NCBI RefSeq assembly: GCF_937951745.1
Contig: NZ_CALFBQ010000061.1
Span: 1-46,931, forward strand
Length of the DNA: 46,931 bases
Direction of reading: 5' to 3'
Origin: an uncultured Chloroflexus sp.
Lineage (GTDB): Bacteria; Chloroflexota; Chloroflexia; Chloroflexales; Chloroflexaceae
The position numbers and the translations under genes are program-made. Shown here in pieces: positions 1 through 46,931 of the stretch (positions within the stretch are counted from its first letter, which is position 1; each line of letters starts with the position of its first letter). The notes under the pieces are model-generated. The model was not told the origin of the DNA. It saw nothing but the letters and a program-made list of their open reading frames with translations, and ran no database searches.

Positions 1-19
1 TAAGAGGAGAGGGGGGTGC

Positions 20-76
20 CCCGCTCCCCGCCGGGGAGCGGGCGAGCTGCACAGCCGTGGGGCTAGACGGCTGTGC
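20..76. repeat. Two adjacent GC-rich hairpins
   Basis: Two perfect inverted repeats lie side by side. Positions 20-29 pair with 33-42 (10 bp arms, 3-nt loop), and GCACAGCCGT at 49-58 pairs with ACGGCTGTGC at 67-76 (10 bp arms, 8-nt loop). The second sits 11 nt past the stop codon of the minus-strand small gene at 87-266, so it could end the transcript of that array. There is no T-run, so an intrinsic terminator is not proven. Confidence 0.5.
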
Positions 77-86
77 GCGGTTGCTG

Positions 87-266
87 TCACGCGCTTTTAA
101 CGCGGATCGGACGGCGCACGGCAGTGGGGTGCCAGCAGGGAGTGGGTGACGGTTCGGGGGTGGGTTGAGGGTCGGGCTGGGCAGATGGCGCTTGGTCAGG
201 CGGATTGGGTGGCGCGGGCGGGACGGCGGGCGGGGCGACGTTGAGCAGGCGGGTCAGCAGCGACAT
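87..266 (-). CDS. Small proline-rich protein, copy 1 (59 aa)
   Basis: The function is unknown. The ORF starts with ATG at 266, preceded by AGAGGAT about 8 nt upstream, and ends with TGA at 87-89. The N-terminus MSLLTRLLNVAPPAVPPAPP matches the two other copies. The middle (residues 25-43) has diverged into a Pro/Gln/Thr-rich stretch. The last 15 residues (W-H-P-T-A-V-R-R-P-I-R-V-K-S-A) again match the other copies, although the DNA there differs at many third codon positions. Protein conservation over diverged DNA is the main evidence that this is a real gene. The polyproline runs would be expected to need elongation factor P for translation. There is no signal peptide, though the first ten residues are weakly hydrophobic. 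It is the most diverged and the last copy in the direction of transcription. Confidence 0.65.
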   Translation of the reverse strand: MSLLTRLLNVAPPAVPPAPPNPPDQAPSAQPDPQPTPEPSPTPCWHPTAVRRPIRVKSA

Positions 267-547
267 AGGGTCTATCCTCTCGGCTATGAGATGAAAAGGT
301 ATTCATATAAGAAACCGCACGAATCGGCAAAAGGATTCGCGGTGTTGGCAGAGATGTTTGGTGATCCGTCTCTCGCTAGGCGGAGGCTGCGGAGTAGGCT
401 TTACAACGGTCTCCCTCATCCCCCCTTCTCCCGTTCGGCGAACAAAGGGCACTCCTGCGCTGGCAGATGGCGCGTGCACTTACACCGGATCGCACCTGCG
501 GAGCAGGGTTTGGCGAGGTAGCCCAGCCTTCAAGAGGTGGGCGCGCC

Positions 548-712
548 TCAGGCACTTTTGACCTTAAGCGGGCGACGGATGGCTCTCGGATACCAAAACG
601 GCGCAGGCGGTGGGGTGGGTTCCTCGCGCACCGGCTTGGGGTCAGTCGGATTGGGTGGCGCGGGCGGGACGGCGGGTGGGGCGACGTTGAGCAGGCGGGT
701 TAGCAGTGGCAT
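548..712 (-). CDS. Small proline-rich protein, copy 2 (54 aa)
   Basis: This is the second member of the tandem family; its function is unknown. It starts with ATG at 712 behind AGAGGAT and ends with TGA at 548-550. The layout is MPLLTRLLNV, a PP-rich block to about residue 22, a short charged stretch (K-P-V-R-E-E), more prolines, then the C-terminal motif F-W-Y-P-R-A-I-R-R-P-L-K-V-K-S-A. Against copy 3 there are six nucleotide differences in the reading frame. Four are synonymous (codons 2, 4, 12, 34) and two change an amino acid (T/P at 23, V/A at 28). That pattern fits mild purifying selection. The basic C-terminus and Pro-rich body suggest a flexible binding protein, but this is only a guess. 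Confidence 0.62.
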   Translation of the reverse strand: MPLLTRLLNVAPPAVPPAPPNPTDPKPVREEPTPPPAPFWYPRAIRRPLKVKSA

Positions 713-994
713 AGGGTCTATCCTCTCGGCTATGAGATGAAAAGGTATTCATACAAGAAACTGCACGAATCGGCAAAAGGATGCGCGGTGTTGGCAGAGA
801 TGTTTGGTGATCCGTCTCTCGCTAGGCGGAGGCTGCGGAGCAGGCTTTACAACGGTCTCCCTCATCCCCCCCTTCTCCCGTTCGGCGAACAAAGGGCACT
901 CCTGCGCTGGCAGATGGCGCGTGCGCTTGCATCGGATCGCACCTGCGGAGCAGGGTTTGGCGAGGTAGCCCAGCCTTCAAGAGGTGGGCGCGCC

Positions 995-1159
995 TCAGGC
1001 ACTTTTGACCTTAAGCGGGCGACGGATGGCTCTCGGATACCAAAACGGCGCAGGCGGCGGGGTGGGTTCCTCGCGCGCCGGCTTGGGGTCAGGCGGATTG
1101 GGTGGCGCGGGCGGGACGGCGGGCGGGGCGACGTTGAGCAGGCGGGTCAGCAGCGGCAT
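995..1159 (-). CDS. Small proline-rich protein, copy 3 (54 aa)
   Basis: This is the first copy in the direction of transcription. It starts with ATG at 1159, has AGAGGAT about 8 nt upstream, and stops with TGA at 995-997. The protein is the same as copy 2 except for P at 23 and A at 28. Upstream on the minus strand lie TTGCCG, 17 nt and TATGAA, a plausible promoter that is repeated in each unit. The copies could therefore be expressed separately or as one transcript. The overlapping plus-strand frame (737-1201) has no ribosome binding site and simply runs through the repeat, so it is taken as spurious. Confidence 0.62.
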   Translation of the reverse strand: MPLLTRLLNVAPPAVPPAPPNPPDPKPAREEPTPPPAPFWYPRAIRRPLKVKSA

Positions 1160-1451
1160 AGGGTCTATCCTCTCGGCTATGAGATGAAAAGGTATTCATA
1201 GAAGAAACCGCACGAATCGGCAAAAGGATGCGCGGTGTTGGCAGAGATGTTTGGTGATCGATACTTCTCTGAATCAAACTGGCGGAGCGGGCCGCGCAAA
1301 GGTGCATCTACCCCTCGAAGGATGAATACCCCTTTTTTTGCGAGCATGGTTTGGTAGCGCGGTTGTGGGCAAACAAGGTGGTAAGGCTGAGTGCAGTTGA
1401 AGCGGGTAAGAATGAGGCCTACTTCTATGTGTAATCCGCCTATCAACCCTC

Positions 1452-1480
1452 TTGACACCAACTCGCTAACCTGCTATATT
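1452..1480 (+). promoter_or_regulatory. Sigma-70-type promoter of the Gam-like gene
   Basis: A perfect -35 box TTGACA at 1452-1457, a 17-nt spacer and a -10 box TATATT at 1475-1480 (5 of 6 consensus positions) give a strong housekeeping promoter. The predicted start of transcription is near 1487, about 65 nt before the ATG at 1553. A second TATAAT at about 1486-1491 has no clear -35. Confidence 0.75.
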
Positions 1481-1493
1481 CTTCTGTATAATT

Positions 1494-1505
1494 GAACATT
1501 TGTTC
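1494..1505. promoter_or_regulatory. Candidate LexA (SOS) operator, GAAC-N4-GTTC
   Basis: GAACATTTGTTC is a perfect dyad that matches the core of the Gram-positive (DinR/LexA) SOS box. It lies at about +8 to +19 relative to the predicted start of transcription, where a bound repressor would block the promoter at 1452-1480. LexA of Dehalococcoides, another Chloroflexota member, is known to bind the Gram-positive box. That this site is bound here is inference. Confidence 0.55.
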
Positions 1506-1552
1506 TTTTTTGTCCGCCACTATCTTCCAATGCAGAAAGGACACTTGCACCA

Positions 1553-1966
1553 ATGGCTTCTCCCGACATCTTGCGCACCATTGAAGAACTGGCCGATGCA
1601 CGCGATGCGCGCGCGGCGTTAGCTGCGGCGCACGATGCCAAGAAGGCGGACATCATGCGCCAAATTGCGGACGAATTGGCGGCGCTTGATGCCGAGTACG
1701 TACCGTTGCTGGCAGCCGCAGACGAGCAGATCAAGGCTTTGGAACAGGACATCCGCGCTGCAGTTCTCCAGCATGGCGCATCGGTGCGCGGCAGTCGTAT
1801 ACAAGCAGTCTATATCCGAGGGCGCACCACGTGGGATACGAAGGGGCTGATGCGCTATGCGATGCGTTATCCCGATGTCTTGACCTACCGCAAGGAGTCG
1901 GCGCCAATAGTGCAATTGCGGATGATTAAAGAGGTACCGATGCAAGCGGGGGTAGCGATATCGTAG
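1553..1966 (+). CDS. Gam-like/Gp157-like coiled-coil protein (137 aa)
   Basis: This is a likely member of the small phage-related proteins annotated as host-nuclease inhibitor Gam or Gp157-like. Residues 5-80 are an Ala/Asp/Glu-rich, heptad-like helical region typical of their coiled coil. The C-terminal part has the recognisable order G-R-T-T-W-D-T-K-G-L, Y-A-M-R-Y-P and Y-R-K-E-S-A-P-I-V-Q-L-R, as seen in phage and integrative-element relatives. The ATG at 1553 is preceded by AAAGGA about 11 nt upstream. The gene stands alone with a strong promoter and a LexA-type box, which suggests DNA-damage control and a role at DNA ends. Mu Gam binds double-strand ends and blocks RecBCD-type nucleases. 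The family assignment is from motif memory, and no other phage gene is visible nearby. Confidence 0.6.
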   Translation: MASPDILRTIEELADARDARAALAAAHDAKKADIMRQIADELAALDAEYVPLLAAADEQIKALEQDIRAAVLQHGASVRGSRIQAVYIRGRTTWDTKGLMRYAMRYPDVLTYRKESAPIVQLRMIKEVPMQAGVAIS

Positions 1967-2008
1967 GTCGCCGGTGCGAATGATGGACGGCTGTGGTGAG
2001 GGCAGTGC

Positions 2009-2392
2009 GTGCCCCCCGCCTGCGCGGCGCTGAGGCAGAGGCAGATCAGCGGTTTGATAAGGCGGCAGTCTGCCCCCGCCTGCGCGGCGCTGCGTCGAGC
2101 CGTGATCTACGAAGTGCGAATCTTGCTGGGTTATGCCAAGATTGATCCGGTCGATGGCCCGAACCGGCTTTGGCAGAACCGGCGGATGCGCCGGGTGTGG
2201 CTAGAGTTTAGCACTGGCGATTGGATCGAGGCGCTGATCGATGATCAAGCCACATTGCCAGCGATCCCGGTAAACAACATTGCGACTGATGGTATCCGGA
2301 TCGTGATTTTGGAGAGTTTGCCTCCAGCGCTGGCCGATGGGCGCGATTTTACGCCGATCAGCGAGGTGGAAGTGTTAGGAGTGGTGCGGTGA
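2009..2392 (+). pseudogene. Truncated discoidin-like (NADase-type glycan-binding) domain gene
   Basis: Residues from about 35 onward (G-Y-A-K-I-D-P-V-D-G, W-Q-N-R-R-M-R-R-V, L-E-F-S-T-G, I-R-I-V-I-L-E-S, I-S-E-V-E-V-L-G) match the second half of the discoidin-like NADase-type glycan-binding domain found in many surface proteins. The first half, with the usual D-G-D-P-x-T-A-W motif, is missing. In its place are about 30 residues encoded by two copies of a GC-rich direct repeat (about 2011-2032 and 2070-2091). The start is a GTG at 2009; a GTG at 2102 is also possible. The TGA at 2390-2392 overlaps the GTG start of the M23 gene, so the two frames may still be translationally coupled. It is either a degenerate 5'-truncated gene or a very small domain protein. 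Confidence 0.5.
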
Positions 2393-3093
2393 ACGTGCAT
2401 GCTATACTGTGCTGGGTGTTGGCGGCATGTACGCTCGTGCTGGCTGGATGCGGCAAGACTGCTGTCTCGGTAAGCCAGCAGTCTCTGCCAGTGGCGACAG
2501 TGGCGATAGTGATGTCTAGCCCGACGCCGTTCCCGCCAACCCGCACCCCGCGACCTAGTCCGACATCCCTGCCGACCCTAACATCCACGTTAGAGCCGAC
2601 GCCGGTACCACCGACTGCCACGCCGGTCACGCTCACATACGTCTTCCCGGTGCGCGGCGAACGGATTGAGTATAGCCCTTACCATCACGACTATCCGGCG
2701 ACCGACATCTTTTGCCCGGTTGGGAGTGAATTTGTAGCCCCAACGAGCGGCATCGTCGATTTTGTCAACCGAGTCGATCGCTGGAATCCGGCCACGAACC
2801 AGCCTGAGCATCGCGGCGGCTTGGCGGTCGCGATCATCGGTGATGACGGCTGGCGCTACTACGGCTCACATTTGTCGGCGGTTGCTGAAGGGATCGAGCC
2901 GGGGGTGCGGGTCGAGGCGGGGCAGGTCTTGGGATACACCGGTAACAGCGGCAATGCGCGTGGCACCCCGCCGCACCTGCATTTTGGCATCTCACGCCCG
3001 ACGACGCCGGACGACTGGGCCGTGCGGCGCGGCGAGATCCCGCCGTTTGCGTACCTGCAAGCGTGGGAGCGGGGCGAGCTGCTGCGCCCGTAA
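2389..3093 (+). CDS. M23-family peptidase lipoprotein (234 aa)
   Basis: This is a predicted cell-wall-type metallopeptidase anchored outside the membrane. Residues 1-20 form a lipoprotein signal with lipobox L-A-G-C. Residues 40-80 are a Pro/Thr-rich linker, and the LytM/M23 domain follows. Zinc ligands are visible in H-H-D-Y-P-A-T-D near residue 100 and in H-L-H-F-G near residue 198, together with the G-S-H-L strand. The start is the GTG at 2389, whose last two bases overlap the preceding stop codon. M23 enzymes cut peptidoglycan cross-links; some LytM proteins only bind or activate, but the ligands here look complete. The likely role is wall remodelling or growth. Confidence 0.85.
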   Translation: MNVHAILCWVLAACTLVLAGCGKTAVSVSQQSLPVATVAIVMSSPTPFPPTRTPRPSPTSLPTLTSTLEPTPVPPTATPVTLTYVFPVRGERIEYSPYHHDYPATDIFCPVGSEFVAPTSGIVDFVNRVDRWNPATNQPEHRGGLAVAIIGDDGWRYYGSHLSAVAEGIEPGVRVEAGQVLGYTGNSGNARGTPPHLHFGISRPTTPDDWAVRRGEIPPFAYLQAWERGELLRP

Positions 3094-3310
3094 CCGTAGG
3101 CTGTGGGCAGGTGTTTTGAATAGACTATGGATTGCCACGGGTTGGACGGATGTGTACGGATCGGTGAAAATCCGTAGCACCTATACGAATTCGTATCCTA
3201 ATTTGGCTGAATGGGATACATATTTTCACAATTGGGAACAGATGCACACGGATCAGTATCGCTCAGCCACTTGCCATAGTGTGATGGTGTTGCTGGACGC
3301 CGTTCGTGAG

Positions 3311-3781
3311 TTACGACCCAAGCTTCACAATCATCGGAATGAAGATCTGCGGCTGCGGCGCCTTGCTCCCGTCCGGTTCCACCACTCGCATCGGGAACGG
3401 ACGGTAATCGGCAGCGCCGTCGCCGAGTTGGCCGGAGTTGTTGCAGTCCTAGCAGCGGACGGTGCCGTCAGTCAGCAGTGTGCAAGTATGCACACTATCC
3501 ACCGCGATGGCCTTACTGGTGGGAGGGGGCCGTCTTGCCGTCGCCAAGTTGGCCGTAGTGGTTCCAACCCCGGCAATGACCATAGCGCTATCCGCTAGCC
3601 CGCAGGTATGATCATTGCCTGCAACCACTTGGGTAAATTCGATCCCCTGCGGCGCCGGCGGTTCGTTGAATGTCGCTGCTGTCGCGCGTGGTACGCGGAT
3701 GGGCAATGTAGATGGCACGGCGAACGCGGCGAGGACGAGCGTGATCAACAGCAGAGCTGAGCATACCACTGGATGACGCAT
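3311..3781 (-). pseudogene. RCC1-repeat secreted protein, disrupted
   Basis: The gene begins with ATG at 3781 behind a strong GAGAGGAGG and a hydrophobic signal sequence (residues 1-25). It then encodes RCC1-type beta-propeller blade motifs such as V-V-A-G-N-D-H-T-C-G-L. Three lesions are visible. After G-L-A-D-S-A the blade core W-N-H-Y-G-Q-L-G-D-G continues only in another frame, and the original frame returns at D-S-V-H-T-C-T-L-L. A TAG at 3449-3451 replaces the Trp of the conserved R-C-W motif. Past the TAG the blade resumes with N-N-S-G-Q-L-G-D-G and ends in a normal C-terminus at 3311. Most of the seven blades are missing, so this is the decayed remnant of a larger gene. Confidence 0.8.
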
Positions 3782-4013
3782 AGCGAACCTCCTCTCTCAG
3801 AACGTATGATCGAGCAACGAACGATGTGAAGACCTGTACTGGCGGGCGCTGCTCGACAGCGCCATTCAGCGCCTGTTCGTAGCGGCAGGCGGCTAGTTTG
3901 CCCAACTGATGCGTCATACCGGCATCTATTGAGGAATTTGGCAAGGATGTTCCTCCTATTGAATCGCCTTCGCGCAGCGTTGTCACTGTGATCGGGATAG
4001 TAACCGGCGCAGC

Positions 4014-4308
4014 GTTATCAGTCTTCAGGACTATGAAGTTGAGTTATGGTTAGGCATCTTGAGCAGCTTGGGTGGTGTCGGTATACCCGTGGATTCGACG
4101 ATATTAGCGTTGGTGTTTTCAGAACAATCTGCGGTGATTGATTTTCGCGGCTGGCGGCAAATCTTTGGTGAAGAGAAGCGAACGTTCTCGATGGCTGATT
4201 ACAAACGCCACCTGAGCGGTTAAACGTCTGGCGGCTGAGTTGGGGTGGCTGGTGCAAGAGGTTGATTTGGCGATGTGGGAGTATGATCGCAGTATGGATA
4301 AGAGATAG
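4014..4308 (+). pseudogene. Frameshifted C-terminal fragment of an unknown conserved protein
   Basis: The plus-strand frame reads L-W-L-G-I-L-S-S-L-G-G-V-G-I-P-V-D-S-T-I, then F-S-E-Q-S-A-V-I-D-F-R-G-W and F-S-M-A-D-Y-K-R-H-L. It breaks at TAA 4221-4223. Shifting by one base at about 4216 restores a sensible ending (V-K-R-L-A-A-E-L-G-W and E-V-D-L-A-M-W-E-Y-D-R) that stops at 4306-4308. The G-V-G-x-P-x-x-S/T-x-I-L stretch followed by V-I-D-x-R-x-W recalls helix-hairpin-helix glycosylase-fold proteins of unknown function. That match is from memory and tentative. No start codon or N-terminal half is present. Confidence 0.55.
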
Positions 4309-4320
4309 TGATGTTCAGAG

Positions 4321-4345
4321 AGTGTGGTAGTTTTACTACCGCACT
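4321..4345. repeat. Intergenic palindrome, GTGCGGCAGT-like family
   Basis: AGTGTGGTAG (4321-4330) and CTACCGCACT (4336-4345) form a 10-bp stem with one wobble pair and a 5-nt loop. It is a diverged relative of the palindromes at 8092, 11526, 13078, 36546 and 36625. It lies 12 nt past the stop of the pseudogene at 4014-4308. Confidence 0.55.
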
Positions 4346-4517
4346 CCGTAATGATGTTCGTTATGCAATAGAGTTGTGTTTCTGCATGACGCACTCTGTC
4401 GGTGGGGATTGTTGCGAGCAGGTTATAATCCCCCTAGTTATCCTTTTTTACGCGGTGTGGTCAGGTGTTCACGCTGATGATGAGCAGACTGAGAACGAGT
4501 GCGCTATACTATGTATC

Positions 4518-4523
4518 TATAAT
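4518..4523 (+). promoter_or_regulatory. Candidate -10 box of the cobalamin riboswitch transcript
   Basis: A perfect TATAAT lies 24 nt before the first paired base of the riboswitch. No good -35 hexamer is visible at the right distance. An alternative TATACT lies at 4505-4510. Confidence 0.4.
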
Positions 4524-4546
4524 CGTGTACGTTGCCAACCAAATAC

Positions 4547-4668
4547 CGTCGCGGTGACCCGTTAGCCCGGATGCTAGGGCGTAAAGGTGGAAGCTGGTGC
4601 AAGTCCAGCGCTGTGCCGCAACTGTAACCGGTCAGGATTGGCCGGAAGCTAGGACGCCTGCCGCGATG
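4547..4668 (+). ncRNA. Cobalamin (adenosylcobalamin-type) riboswitch
   Basis: The B12-box signatures are present in order: G-G-A-A-G-C-T-G-G-T-G-C-A-A-G-T-C-C near 4591, G-C-C-G-C-A-A-C-T-G-T-A-A near 4615, and the 3' GAAGCTAGGACGCCTGCC element near 4645. The ends pair as CGTCGCGG (4547-4554) with CCGCGATG (4661-4668), giving a closing stem P1. It is followed by a leader minigene and an intrinsic terminator at 4755. Binding of B12 would be expected to favour termination and lower expression of the genes from 4907 on, including the BtuF-like gene. Confidence 0.9.
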
Positions 4669-4705
4669 TGTCTGTTCAGCCCTTCTCGAGCTAAGGAGGA
4701 CGGAC

Positions 4706-4723
4706 ATGCCCCGCGCGCCTTGA
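4706..4723 (+). CDS. Five-codon leader minigene (MPRAP)
   Basis: Between the riboswitch and its terminator an excellent Shine-Dalgarno sequence, AAGGAGG (4693-4699), is followed 6 nt later by ATG and then CCC CGC GCG CCT TGA. The stop overlaps the 5' arm of a small hairpin (AACGCG 4723-4728 with CGCGTT 4733-4738). It may be a translated leader peptide that couples ribosome position to termination. Alternatively it may be the surviving start of a gene that once followed the riboswitch. Only the strong ribosome site supports it. Confidence 0.35.
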   Translation: MPRAP

Positions 4724-4754
4724 ACGCGCTCTCGCGTTGACCCAGATCATGTTG

Positions 4755-4785
4755 CCCCGATCTCTGGAAGGAGATCGGGGTTTTT
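4755..4785 (+). terminator. Rho-independent terminator (riboswitch attenuator)
   Basis: CCCCGATCTC (4755-4764) and GAGATCGGGG (4771-4780) form a perfect 10-bp stem with a 6-nt loop, directly followed by TTTTT. It is 86 nt past the riboswitch and 122 nt before the next gene, the layout of a transcription-attenuation riboswitch. Confidence 0.9.
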
Positions 4786-4906
4786 GCTTGTAGCGCGAAG
4801 CTGCACTGACTCTTATCTCCCTTAATCGCTCGTGCTGGGAGGTTGTTGGTTTGTTTGTCGTGAGCGCTGTGCCTGCTGTTGGCGTAGGCAGGAAAGGAGC
4901 GGGCCA

Positions 4907-5245
4907 ATGTTGCAGTGTGATGTGCGCGATATTTGTGATGAATTGCATACGATCGAGCAGCGGCTTGCCGGCTACTGCCGTGATTTTGTCGAGCTGGTGA
5001 ACCAGTCGCCATGTCTAGCACTGAGCTATATCGAGCGCATCGCTCATGATCGGGCGCGTATCTTGCACCTCGCCTTGCTATCGCGCGGTCTCAGCACCGA
5101 TTACGAGCGTTGGGCCAAGACGTCAATGGATGAGCGGATGCGCCAGATCGGTTTCGACCGGTTTTCGCGCCGCAAGTTGCGCTATGTGCGCTGGGCCGGA
5201 TTTAGTTGTGAATTGTCGGCTTTGCAACCATTCAACTCGACGTAG
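4907..5245 (+). CDS. Hypothetical protein (112 aa) in the riboswitch transcript
   Basis: The family is not recognised. The ATG at 4907 is preceded by AAAGGAG about 9 nt upstream. This start is preferred to an upstream in-frame start at 4832, which would lie within 50 nt of the terminator and lacks a ribosome site. The product is soluble and probably all-helical. It has two Cys in the first 45 residues (C-R-D-F and S-P-C-L-A-L) and a basic C-terminal half (F-D-R-F-S-R-R-K-L-R-Y-V-R-W). There is no signal peptide or membrane segment. It sits between the B12 riboswitch and the BtuF-like gene, 55 nt before the latter, so a cobalamin-linked role is possible but unproven. Confidence 0.7.
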   Translation: MLQCDVRDICDELHTIEQRLAGYCRDFVELVNQSPCLALSYIERIAHDRARILHLALLSRGLSTDYERWAKTSMDERMRQIGFDRFSRRKLRYVRWAGFSCELSALQPFNST

Positions 5246-5300
5246 CTGACCTCAATAACTTGATAATGTGCCTTCACCAATGGCGAGAGGAATGAAGAGT

Positions 5301-6191
5301 ATGCGCATTGTGTCATTGATGCCGCCGGCAACCGAGATAATCTGCCGTCTCGGTTTGGCCGATCTCTTGGTTGGCGTTTCCCATCTGTGCGATTTTCCTG
5401 CCGAGGTTGTCACCGGATTACCACGTGTGACCCGCTCGGCGATCCCTGCTAGCCTCTCGGTGGCAGAACTCGATTGGGTGTTGGCGACGCGCCTACGCCG
5501 GGGTGAGAATCTCTTTTCACTTGATGAAGCTGCGCTTATCACGCTCGCGCCTGATCTGATCATCACTCAAGACCTGTGCGATCTTGGTTTGCCTTCGTTT
5601 GACGAGGTATGCTCGCTGCGGCAGCGTTTGCCGGCTGATAGCCAGATCGTCTCGTTGGCGATGCCTGATCTCGATGACCTCTCTCACGATGTGATGGTCA
5701 TCGCGGAAGCGGTAGGTTATCCTGAACGGGGCCGGCGGTTGTGCGACCAGATGCAGATGCAGTTAGCGCGGGTGCAGATGGCCAGCGCTGGCCGTCCGCG
5801 TCCGAAAGTGGTGGCGCTGGAGTGGCTCGACCCGCCGTTTACCGCTGGTCAGTGGGCAGCGGAGATTGTGCGGTTGGCCGGCGGGAATGAGTTGTTGAGC
5901 CGGGTGGATGGGCATTCGGTTCCGGTGAGCTGGAAACAGATACAAGCTGCGCAACCCGATGTGATCGTGTTACTGTTGGCCGGGCATACGGCCCAAGCCA
6001 CCGAGCGGTATTGGCAGACCGCCAAACTGCCGTGCGAGGCGCGCGCGATCCCGGCTATCCGTGATCGGCGGGTTTACGCGCTTGATGCCCGCCCGCTCAG
6101 TATTCGCCCCACGCCGCGTATGGTCGATCTGGTCGAACGTCTGGCAACGCTCTTACCCCCAACTCGATTGACGGAGCAGTGTTATGCCTAA
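5301..6191 (+). CDS. BtuF-like cobalamin-binding protein (296 aa)
   Basis: This is a member of the TroA/BtuF substrate-binding fold (COG0614). The N-terminus M-R-I-V-S-L-M-P-P-A-T-E-I-I matches the usual start of cobalamin-binding proteins. Later motifs include F-S-L-D-E-A-A-L-I near residue 70, the W-L-D-P-P-F-T-A-G-Q-W strand near 175 and the A-A-Q-P-D-V-I-V strand near 225. The ATG at 5301 is favoured by family length and by AGAGG 10 nt upstream; in-frame starts at 5268, 5280 and 5292 would only add a short polar tail. There is no signal peptide or lipobox, so the protein appears cytoplasmic. It may salvage or sense corrinoids rather than feed an ABC importer, and no btuC or btuD is nearby. 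It lies downstream of a B12 riboswitch and overlaps the thioesterase gene by 8 nt. Confidence 0.8.
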   Translation: MRIVSLMPPATEIICRLGLADLLVGVSHLCDFPAEVVTGLPRVTRSAIPASLSVAELDWVLATRLRRGENLFSLDEAALITLAPDLIITQDLCDLGLPSFDEVCSLRQRLPADSQIVSLAMPDLDDLSHDVMVIAEAVGYPERGRRLCDQMQMQLARVQMASAGRPRPKVVALEWLDPPFTAGQWAAEIVRLAGGNELLSRVDGHSVPVSWKQIQAAQPDVIVLLLAGHTAQATERYWQTAKLPCEARAIPAIRDRRVYALDARPLSIRPTPRMVDLVERLATLLPPTRLTEQCYA

Positions 6192-46280: not shown

Positions 46281-46931
46281 AGATGTGCTCCCTTGCTCAA
46301 TAACATACTTCTCTATCGTACCATGGCTTGATCAGGCAACGGCGCGTTGATGGGCATAGTTGAGCGGCAAATACCATCGAGGCGCATAGCCGTGTGTTTT
46401 GTGTCTCACCCTTCTCCTTTCTCGCTAGAGGCGGGATGCTTTCTTGCGTTGCCGGTGTCTCTTGTTGGTAGGTCTCCTACCCTCCCCCACAAGGGGGGAG
46501 GTCTACTCCCCCACGAGGGGGGAGGGCGACGGCGACGGGGGGAGGGCTACGGATACGGCGACGGGGGGAGGGCTACGGACGACGGATACGGGGGATACCC
46601 CCCACCCCCAGCCCCTCCCCCACAAGGGGGGAGGGGGGAGGACGTATTATGTAGGGCGGAATTTATGCCGCCCCTTGCAATCTGTTGAGCGCGATGGCTG
46701 CCCCCCACCCCCAGCCCTCCCCCACGAGGGGGGAGGGCTACGGATACGGCGACGGGGGGAGGGCGACGGCGACGGGGGGATATCCCCCACCCCCAGCCCC
46801 TCCCCCACGAGGGGGGAGGGGGGAGGACGCATTGTGTAGGGCGGAATTTATGCCGCCCCTAGCAATCTGTTGAGCGCGATGGCTGCCCCCCCACCCCCTA
46901 CCCTCCCCCACGAGGGGGGATACCCCCCACC
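46281..46931. repeat. Low-complexity repeat region with a 185-bp unit
   Basis: No gene is supported here. The first 100 bp are upstream sequence. From about 46470 the DNA is built from palindromic blocks such as CTCCCCCACGAGGGGGGAG, joined by GGGCTACGGATACGGCGACG type runs. A 185-bp period is visible: the segment starting GTAGGGCGGAATTTATGCCG occurs at 46651 and 46836, followed each time by CAATCTGTTGAGCGCGATGG. That segment contains a GGGCGG/CCGCCC hairpin. The array continues past the window end. Long open frames here are a by-product of the composition. Confidence 0.75.

Follow-up and report, generated by a model that had tools for sequence, protein, structure and literature searches.

We found that three short reading frames on the minus strand of the window (the whole 46,931-base stretch of Chloroflexus DNA analysed here) are, as judged from their sequences, real protein-coding genes. 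It is very probable that these frames are both coding and members of a genus-wide competence regulon, that is, of a set of genes for DNA uptake and recombination. Competence regulons are a known kind of regulon; what distinguishes this one is a promoter type of its own and an unnamed family of small proteins. No publication on a Chloroflexus competence regulon was found among the matches listed by a literature search that left subscription journals mostly outside. In the excerpts available, PMC8146883 contains a reference title about Thermus, PMC12288463 deals with pili-dependent aggregation with Chloroflexus, and PMC10355840 concerns another organism.

Three small genes and their relatives

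The three genes are at 87-266 (copy 1, 59 aa), 548-712 (copy 2, 54 aa) and 995-1159 (copy 3, 54 aa) of the minus strand. Each frame has an ATG start, and a check of the open reading frames put all three where the first-pass annotation had placed them. That annotation also described AGAGGAT 5' of every ATG, and the sequence bears this out: the Shine-Dalgarno elements of copies 1 to 3 are at 274-280, 720-726 and 1167-1173 (minus strand), with GAGG starting 13 nt (GAGG/AGGA 12-13 nt) upstream of each ATG. A tandem repeat with a period of 447 bp runs from 194 to 1259 (2.4 copies, 96% matches), and each unit consists of a promoter, a gene and a spacer. All three genes had been assigned to this repeat. 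The repeat was found, but copy 1 is only partly within the good repeat, since this starts at 194. Copies 2 and 3 differ by four synonymous and two non-synonymous changes, exactly the numbers claimed earlier. The end of copy 1 had been said to differ from copies 2 and 3 at many third positions; over the last 17 codons we counted 13 third-position differences and 7 first- or second-position differences.

Divergent from the array is a gene for a 137-aa protein (1553-1966, plus strand) with a sub-threshold Pfam match to Phage_Mu_Gam (E 0.015). This gene was found in two of eight Chloroflexus genomes, both with an adjoining small-gene array at the same place. A search of window positions 1-6000 for a known RNA element at the array gave one chance-level match and, farther off, a cobalamin riboswitch (4535-4678, plus strand, 46.7 bits) that is upstream of an ORF judged by eye to be periplasmic-binding-like (5268-6191). 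A 185-bp tandem repeat (46537-46920; two copies, 92%) lies at the opposite end of the contig.

The protein encoded by copy 3, used as a query, recovered the sister copies in its own genome. In a search of 100 genomes with this query, the best E value in Chloroflexus islandicus was 4.8e-24, and that in all other genomes was 0.0025 or worse. The tandem array of C. islandicus isl-2 consists of six full copies and a partial one. All three window copies are homologous to the six full copies, and the arrays are syntenic: the C. islandicus array is divergent from an orthologue (84% identical) of the window gene at 1553-1966. Profile searches added four copies in the Chloroflexus genome G002, one in G004 and one in G006. 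Of 82 genomes searched in the order, five matched at E 0.001; all five are among the eight Chloroflexus genomes and none among the other 74. In a sixth genome of the genus, G003, the promoter and the Shine-Dalgarno element are followed by a Pro-rich frame (MLLSVLPRRRCAPLAPPPAAPPPPSPPP) that reaches the contig end after 28 codons; this member was counted from those 28 codons, and its tail would lie beyond them. Counting this contig-end fragment, six of the eight Chloroflexus genomes have the small gene, and none of the 74 other genomes of the order has it. The profile search did not find it in G005 (99% complete) or G001 (82% complete), which are fragmented assemblies of 400 and 630 contigs. 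Two weak profile hits, in G005 and G008, were rejected as homologues on inspection by eye.

We also looked for a wider distribution. Across 400 genomes of the phylum (best 15 candidates each), everything outside Chloroflexus matched at E 2e-4 or worse. A scan of contigs from named genomes gave 17 pattern matches, of which C. islandicus alone was confirmed; its tblastn filter used only the first sequence, and distant relatives may be missed by it. An origin as a phage gene was rejected: PHROGs gave no match, and none of three pattern matches in viral contigs was confirmed. By these searches the small-gene family is specific to Chloroflexus. The earlier affiliation of the frames with Chloroflexota stands, with C. 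islandicus isl-2 as the named homologue, and the predicted homologous frame with a conserved tail is present in five Chloroflexus genomes, one being that of the window.

We aligned 15 full homologues from the five genomes. The proteins are 54-66 aa long, and M1, P16, D24, P38, W40, P42, A44 and R46 (copy 3 numbering) are invariant. The family's tail, W-[HY]-P-x-A-[IV]-R-[RH], is conserved and basic. There was no match in Pfam, NCBIfam or PHROGs for the 3, 4 and 4 of 15 members run against them (copy 2 itself was left out), and the best E value, 0.15, was at chance level.

Substitutions in the family obey the claimed reading frame. We computed dN/dS for twenty pairs of copies, five of which, distant ones, were saturated at synonymous sites. 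All four computed pairs of a window copy and a C. islandicus copy had dN/dS of 0.09-0.27: copy 3 gave 0.09-0.16 against three C. islandicus copies, and copy 1 gave 0.27 against C. islandicus copy 2 (the sole computed C. islandicus pair for copy 1). Three pairs within C. islandicus gave 0.10-0.22. Within the window, dN/dS was 0.18 for copies 2 and 3, and 0.35 and 0.43 for copy 1 against copies 2 and 3. One pair within G002 gave 1.75 (11 non-synonymous and 2 synonymous changes). Over 12 pairs of window and C. islandicus copies, pN/pS was 0.24 in the sense frame and 1.87, 2.58, 2.55, 0.41 and 3.03 in the five other frames. Of the six frames, the sense frame thus fits the substitutions best. In addition, the start codon, the Shine-Dalgarno element and the promoter block are kept on the same strand in all 15 full homologues, with a Shine-Dalgarno-like element starting 9-13 nt 5' of the ATG in each. 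Purifying selection on the sense frame, together with the promoter and the Shine-Dalgarno element on the same strand, rules out a chance ORF; the earlier proposal of a real protein family is borne out by the homologous frames in relatives and by this selection.

The frame antisense to the genes (e.g. 537-740, plus strand, 67 aa) runs without a stop through seven of the 15 homologues, namely copies 2 and 3 of the window and five copies of C. islandicus, and its pN/pS of 0.41 is the second best. However, it has third positions in common with the sense frame, is broken by stops in the other eight homologues, and lies opposite a promoter and a Shine-Dalgarno element that are oriented to the sense frame. 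There is next to no chance that the true gene is this antisense frame, with the one on the minus strand as its shadow.

A promoter shared with competence genes

An upstream block is common to all 15 full genes, with a TATAT-like part 38-48 nt 5' of the ATG. The motif has the form GCGnnn-N17-CGGTT-N3-TATA. In the window, the putative promoters are on the minus strand at 306-340 for copy 1 (GCGAATCCTTTTGCC...GCGGTTTCTTATA; 37.3 bits, no mismatches), 752-786 for copy 2 (26.1 bits, more than one mismatch) and 1199-1233 for copy 3 (31.7 bits, one mismatch). The promoter of copy 2 is altered at two core positions (CAGTT, TGTA) and so weakened.

We searched for this motif at fixed length, allowing one mismatch at most. 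There were 43 hits in the eight Chloroflexus genomes compared to 1 for the reversed control. In contrast, hits (15) were fewer than control hits (31) in the 74 genomes of the order that are not Chloroflexus. The motif is therefore a feature of Chloroflexus, being enriched there and below the control elsewhere in the order. A pattern with free spacing gave 32 rows in the eight genomes, some places being counted twice, compared to 1 for the reversed control; among the genes downstream of its hits were comEA, dprA and one for a RecQ-type helicase.

The genes downstream of the motif connect it to competence. Eight of the 43 hits are 5' of small genes (two in the window, five in C. islandicus and one in G003). 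Nearly half of the remaining 35 (17) have comEA (6), dprA (4), comF (3), ssb (2) or recQ (2) downstream. Of the other 18, two are at places that were not read and 16 are upstream of genes without a known role in competence; these genes encode a PAP2-type lipoprotein (5), a WXG100-like 92-aa protein (4), a Uma2-type protein (4), a protein of ~154 aa (2) and a 257-aa protein (1). One member of each kind of gene was checked by profile (Pfam, and for some NCBIfam), and the rest were recognised by like sequence. ComEA (SLBB plus HHH), DprA, SSB, RecQ, PAP2 and Uma2 passed the Pfam cut-offs. ComF matched at E 1.2e-25 in NCBIfam, yet below the curated cut-offs; the WXG100-like protein was just below the Pfam cut-off, and the ~154-aa protein had no Pfam match. 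The search with free spacing added dprA of G006 and the PAP2-type lipoprotein gene of G004.

Three kinds of gene without a known competence role stand out behind competence-type promoters. The WXG100-like 92-aa protein is encoded at L116 1191-1466 and has orthologues in G001, G003 and G004. In six genomes such a promoter is 5' of the gene for a lipoprotein-like protein of 430 aa that contains a PAP2 phosphatase domain (L154 1932-3221 and orthologues). G006 has four Uma2-type (putative endonuclease) genes, one of them Pfam-checked, at G006:C1:1022701, 1068280, 1364554 and 3091370.

ComEC is encoded in all eight Chloroflexus genomes, and a CGGTAT variant of the motif is 28-45 nt 5' of comEC in seven of them. 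The variants in five genomes score 11.0-22.9 bits; those of G005 and G007 score 5.3 and 6.7 bits and need an 18-nt spacer. The variant in G004 has ATG where GCG is expected. No variant was found upstream of comEC in G000. In G004 there is a 17.5-bit site 5' of a gene for a YifB-family ATPase, which we take to be of the comM type (ComM family), ~1.2 kb from the small gene.

The small genes and the com and recombination genes are under one motif, which places the small genes in the predicted competence regulon. They would then be induced when the cell becomes competent.

We scored sites with a matrix made from 26 hand-chosen sites of the regulon, none of which is 5' of a small gene. On both strands of the whole window there were exactly three sites of at least 11 bits, one for each small gene, compared to an average of 0.05 such sites in 20 Markov-resampled windows. 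The independence of this test is limited: the small-gene promoters supplied the first pattern, and the training sites were picked by hand. Unlike the matrix test, the identity of the genes downstream of the motif is independent evidence.

The matrix also detected sites of small genes in other genomes. In C. islandicus, five copies have sites of 39.6-41.9 bits and copy 2 has one of 15.6 bits; elsewhere the sites score 32.4 bits (G003), 24.7 bits (G004) and 21.3-21.7 bits (G002). G006 has seven tandem competence-type promoters (L078 5086-5848; 18.0-23.9 bits). Only the last unit of this array has a full small gene; in the six units before it, the gene is reduced to a mini-frame of a few codons. 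Next after this array is a long repeat array that looks CRISPR-like by eye.

The layout GCGnnn-N17-CGGTT resembles that of a promoter for an extracytoplasmic function (ECF) sigma factor. We compared spacings at 20 sites outside small-gene arrays, from a search in which the -35 was left free. GCG is exactly 23 nt 5' of CGGTT in 16 of them; of the remaining four, two have one change and two look like chance. The fixed spacing of GCG and CGGTT identifies GCGnnn-N17-CGGTT as the core. We also considered a sigma70 reading (TTTTG/TATAT), which fits less well because its two spacings, TTTT to CGGTT and TATAT to CGGTT, vary among the 20 sites and that of GCG and CGGTT does not. As in ECF sigma regulons, there is a GC-rich -35 followed by a T-run, a 17-nt spacer that is fixed in most sites, and a short -10. 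Unlike the -10 in such regulons, that of the competence-type motif is CGGTT with a TATA extension.

Linkage to an ECF-type sigma factor

In two species an ECF sigma gene is beside a small gene, a further likeness to ECF sigma regulons. In G004, a gene for an ECF-type sigma factor (Pfam Sigma70_r2 and r4) follows the small gene at a distance of ~165 nt, with the ATG taken to be at L028 3167. This sigma gene is tandemly repeated, with nine matches in the cluster that cover at least half of the query, one of them with a stop; some of these ~nine copies (G004:C1:2813166-2819522; L028, L049) are shortened. The three copies for which upstream DNA was read have an element in common (GTACCGTTTT ... 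TATACT). In G002, a small gene and a relative of the G004 sigma gene are divergent and ~430 nt apart at two places, and a third pair is ~1.3 kb apart. ORFs that look transposase-like by eye lie between small gene and sigma gene in G002. The fourth small-gene copy of G002 has no sigma neighbour in the ORF list.

The distributions of the two families also agree. Six genomes (G000, G002, G003, G004, G006 and G007) matched the sigma family with E values of 6.2e-28 or lower, and the matches in G001 (1.3e-10) and G005 (4.2e-9) were only at the level of ECF factors in general. The strong sigma family and the small gene are thus in the same six of eight Chloroflexus genomes; the chance of this is 1 in 28, ignoring kinship. 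The sigma genes inspected in G000, G006 and G007 had no small gene next to them.

We infer that the competence-type promoter may be read by an ECF sigma factor. G001 and G005 have the motif and lack both the small gene and the neighbouring sigma family. Therefore, unless these assemblies happen to lack it, that sigma factor would not be the sole reader of the motif. In addition, and unlike the case in ECF sigma regulons, the candidate sigma gene is without the motif. None was found upstream of sigma genes at 11 bits (L042, L043, L044, L048) or at 12 bits (L031-L034, L038, L045-L047, L049). The motif hits at sigma loci belong to small genes, to the YifB-family gene or to a Uma2-type gene, and the neighbouring sigma genes carry an upstream element different from the competence-type motif.

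A search for an autoregulated ECF gene in Chloroflexus (30 loci of a longer list) gave only one ECF gene whose -10, in two genomes, is related to that of the motif but different. This gene, at L193 and L199 in G005 and G007, has CGTC as the -10 and a -35 (GCGCAACTTTTT) that resembles the competence-type one; the element is perhaps the ECF gene's own promoter. In another family of the order, at L172 (G041:C3:1020645), a site with one mismatch is just 5' of an ECF sigma gene. It resembles autoregulation and is perhaps a chance match.

Possible roles of the small proteins

The small proteins have GRAVY values of -0.44 to -0.85 and no hydrophobic span. Structure prediction (mean pLDDT 73.6, pTM 0.16) gave an extended chain whose one helix is N-terminal (residues 3-8), and the Pro-rich body is probably disordered. 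A conserved aromatic-basic end on a Pro-rich spacer would be suitable as a docking motif. We tentatively propose that the small protein would act as an adaptor, unstructured in itself, that binds through its tail to a protein of the regulon, most likely the adjoining ECF sigma factor; with similar reserve, we regard that sigma factor as its best candidate partner. Protein accumulating from several gene copies would then adjust the competence response or shut it off. It is a more doubtful step to the full scheme, in which a dedicated ECF-type sigma factor would drive competence in Chloroflexus and the small proteins would be late partners, amplified in tandem along with their promoters, that set the size and the end of the competence window. 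No published report of competence driven by an ECF-type sigma factor was found among the matches listed.

The proposed regulation has a parallel in the late competence regulon of streptococci, which is controlled by SigX/ComX through the combox and includes the small proteins ComW and CibAB. As there, one dedicated motif would serve comEA, comEC, comF, dprA and ssb, lineage-specific small proteins are included, and an alternative sigma factor is suspected in Chloroflexus. In contrast to the streptococcal regulon, the Chloroflexus promoter is ECF-like and not a combox, and the small proteins have no known sequence relation to those of streptococci. The Chloroflexus proteins are like small regulators of the ComW or anti-sigma type in small size, sigma linkage and competence context. 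They differ from them in that no homology was found in the family libraries, and their gene is under a late-type promoter.

Other roles would also fit a small protein of the regulon. It could be a cytoplasmic helper of incoming ssDNA, its basic tail binding DNA or a complex of SSB, DprA or RecA. The promoter in common with dprA, ssb and recQ and the aromatic residue in the conserved basic tail are consistent with this, but no known DNA-binding fold was recognised (Pfam, NCBIfam and PHROGs were without a match in the members run) and two genomes with com promoters lack the small gene; we consider such a helper unlikely.

Streptococcal bacteriocins induced in competence kill neighbours and free their DNA. 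By analogy, the Chloroflexus genes could encode tandem cationic Pro/Arg/Trp peptides that competent cells release for the same use. The multi-copy tandem arrangement of small genes within a competence regulon is as expected for such peptides, as is the basic tail with its net charge of +3 to +5; the proteins are also Pro-rich with Trp and Arg in the basic tail, like proline-rich antimicrobial peptides. However, we found no signal-like hydrophobic stretch (GRAVY) and, by eye in the alignment, no leader motif, that is, no export signal. The pI of the whole protein drops to 5.6-7.0 in 4 of 15 homologues, making these four members neutral or acidic overall. Furthermore, the tail is the most conserved part of the small protein. 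Bacteriocin cores usually vary. We regard an antimicrobial role as quite improbable.

It is very improbable that the promoter arrays serve to titrate a regulator, with the genes in C. islandicus and the window as mere passengers: G006 has seven tandem promoters for one full gene, but the protein is under purifying selection with its tail kept in five genomes, and the window and C. islandicus amplify gene and promoter together.

Our preferred reading is still that of an adaptor in a competence regulon. Known schemes of competence control include those of SigX, Sxy/CRP and ComK, and the promoter layout suggests that Chloroflexus may have a distinct one, control by an ECF-type sigma factor. The small protein family gains a concrete working context, with short genes tied to a process through their promoter. 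The promoter signature makes DNA uptake by Chloroflexus (whether it occurs, and when) directly testable in filamentous phototrophs. Should it prove possible to switch on the regulon, this would open a path to genetic work in Chloroflexus.
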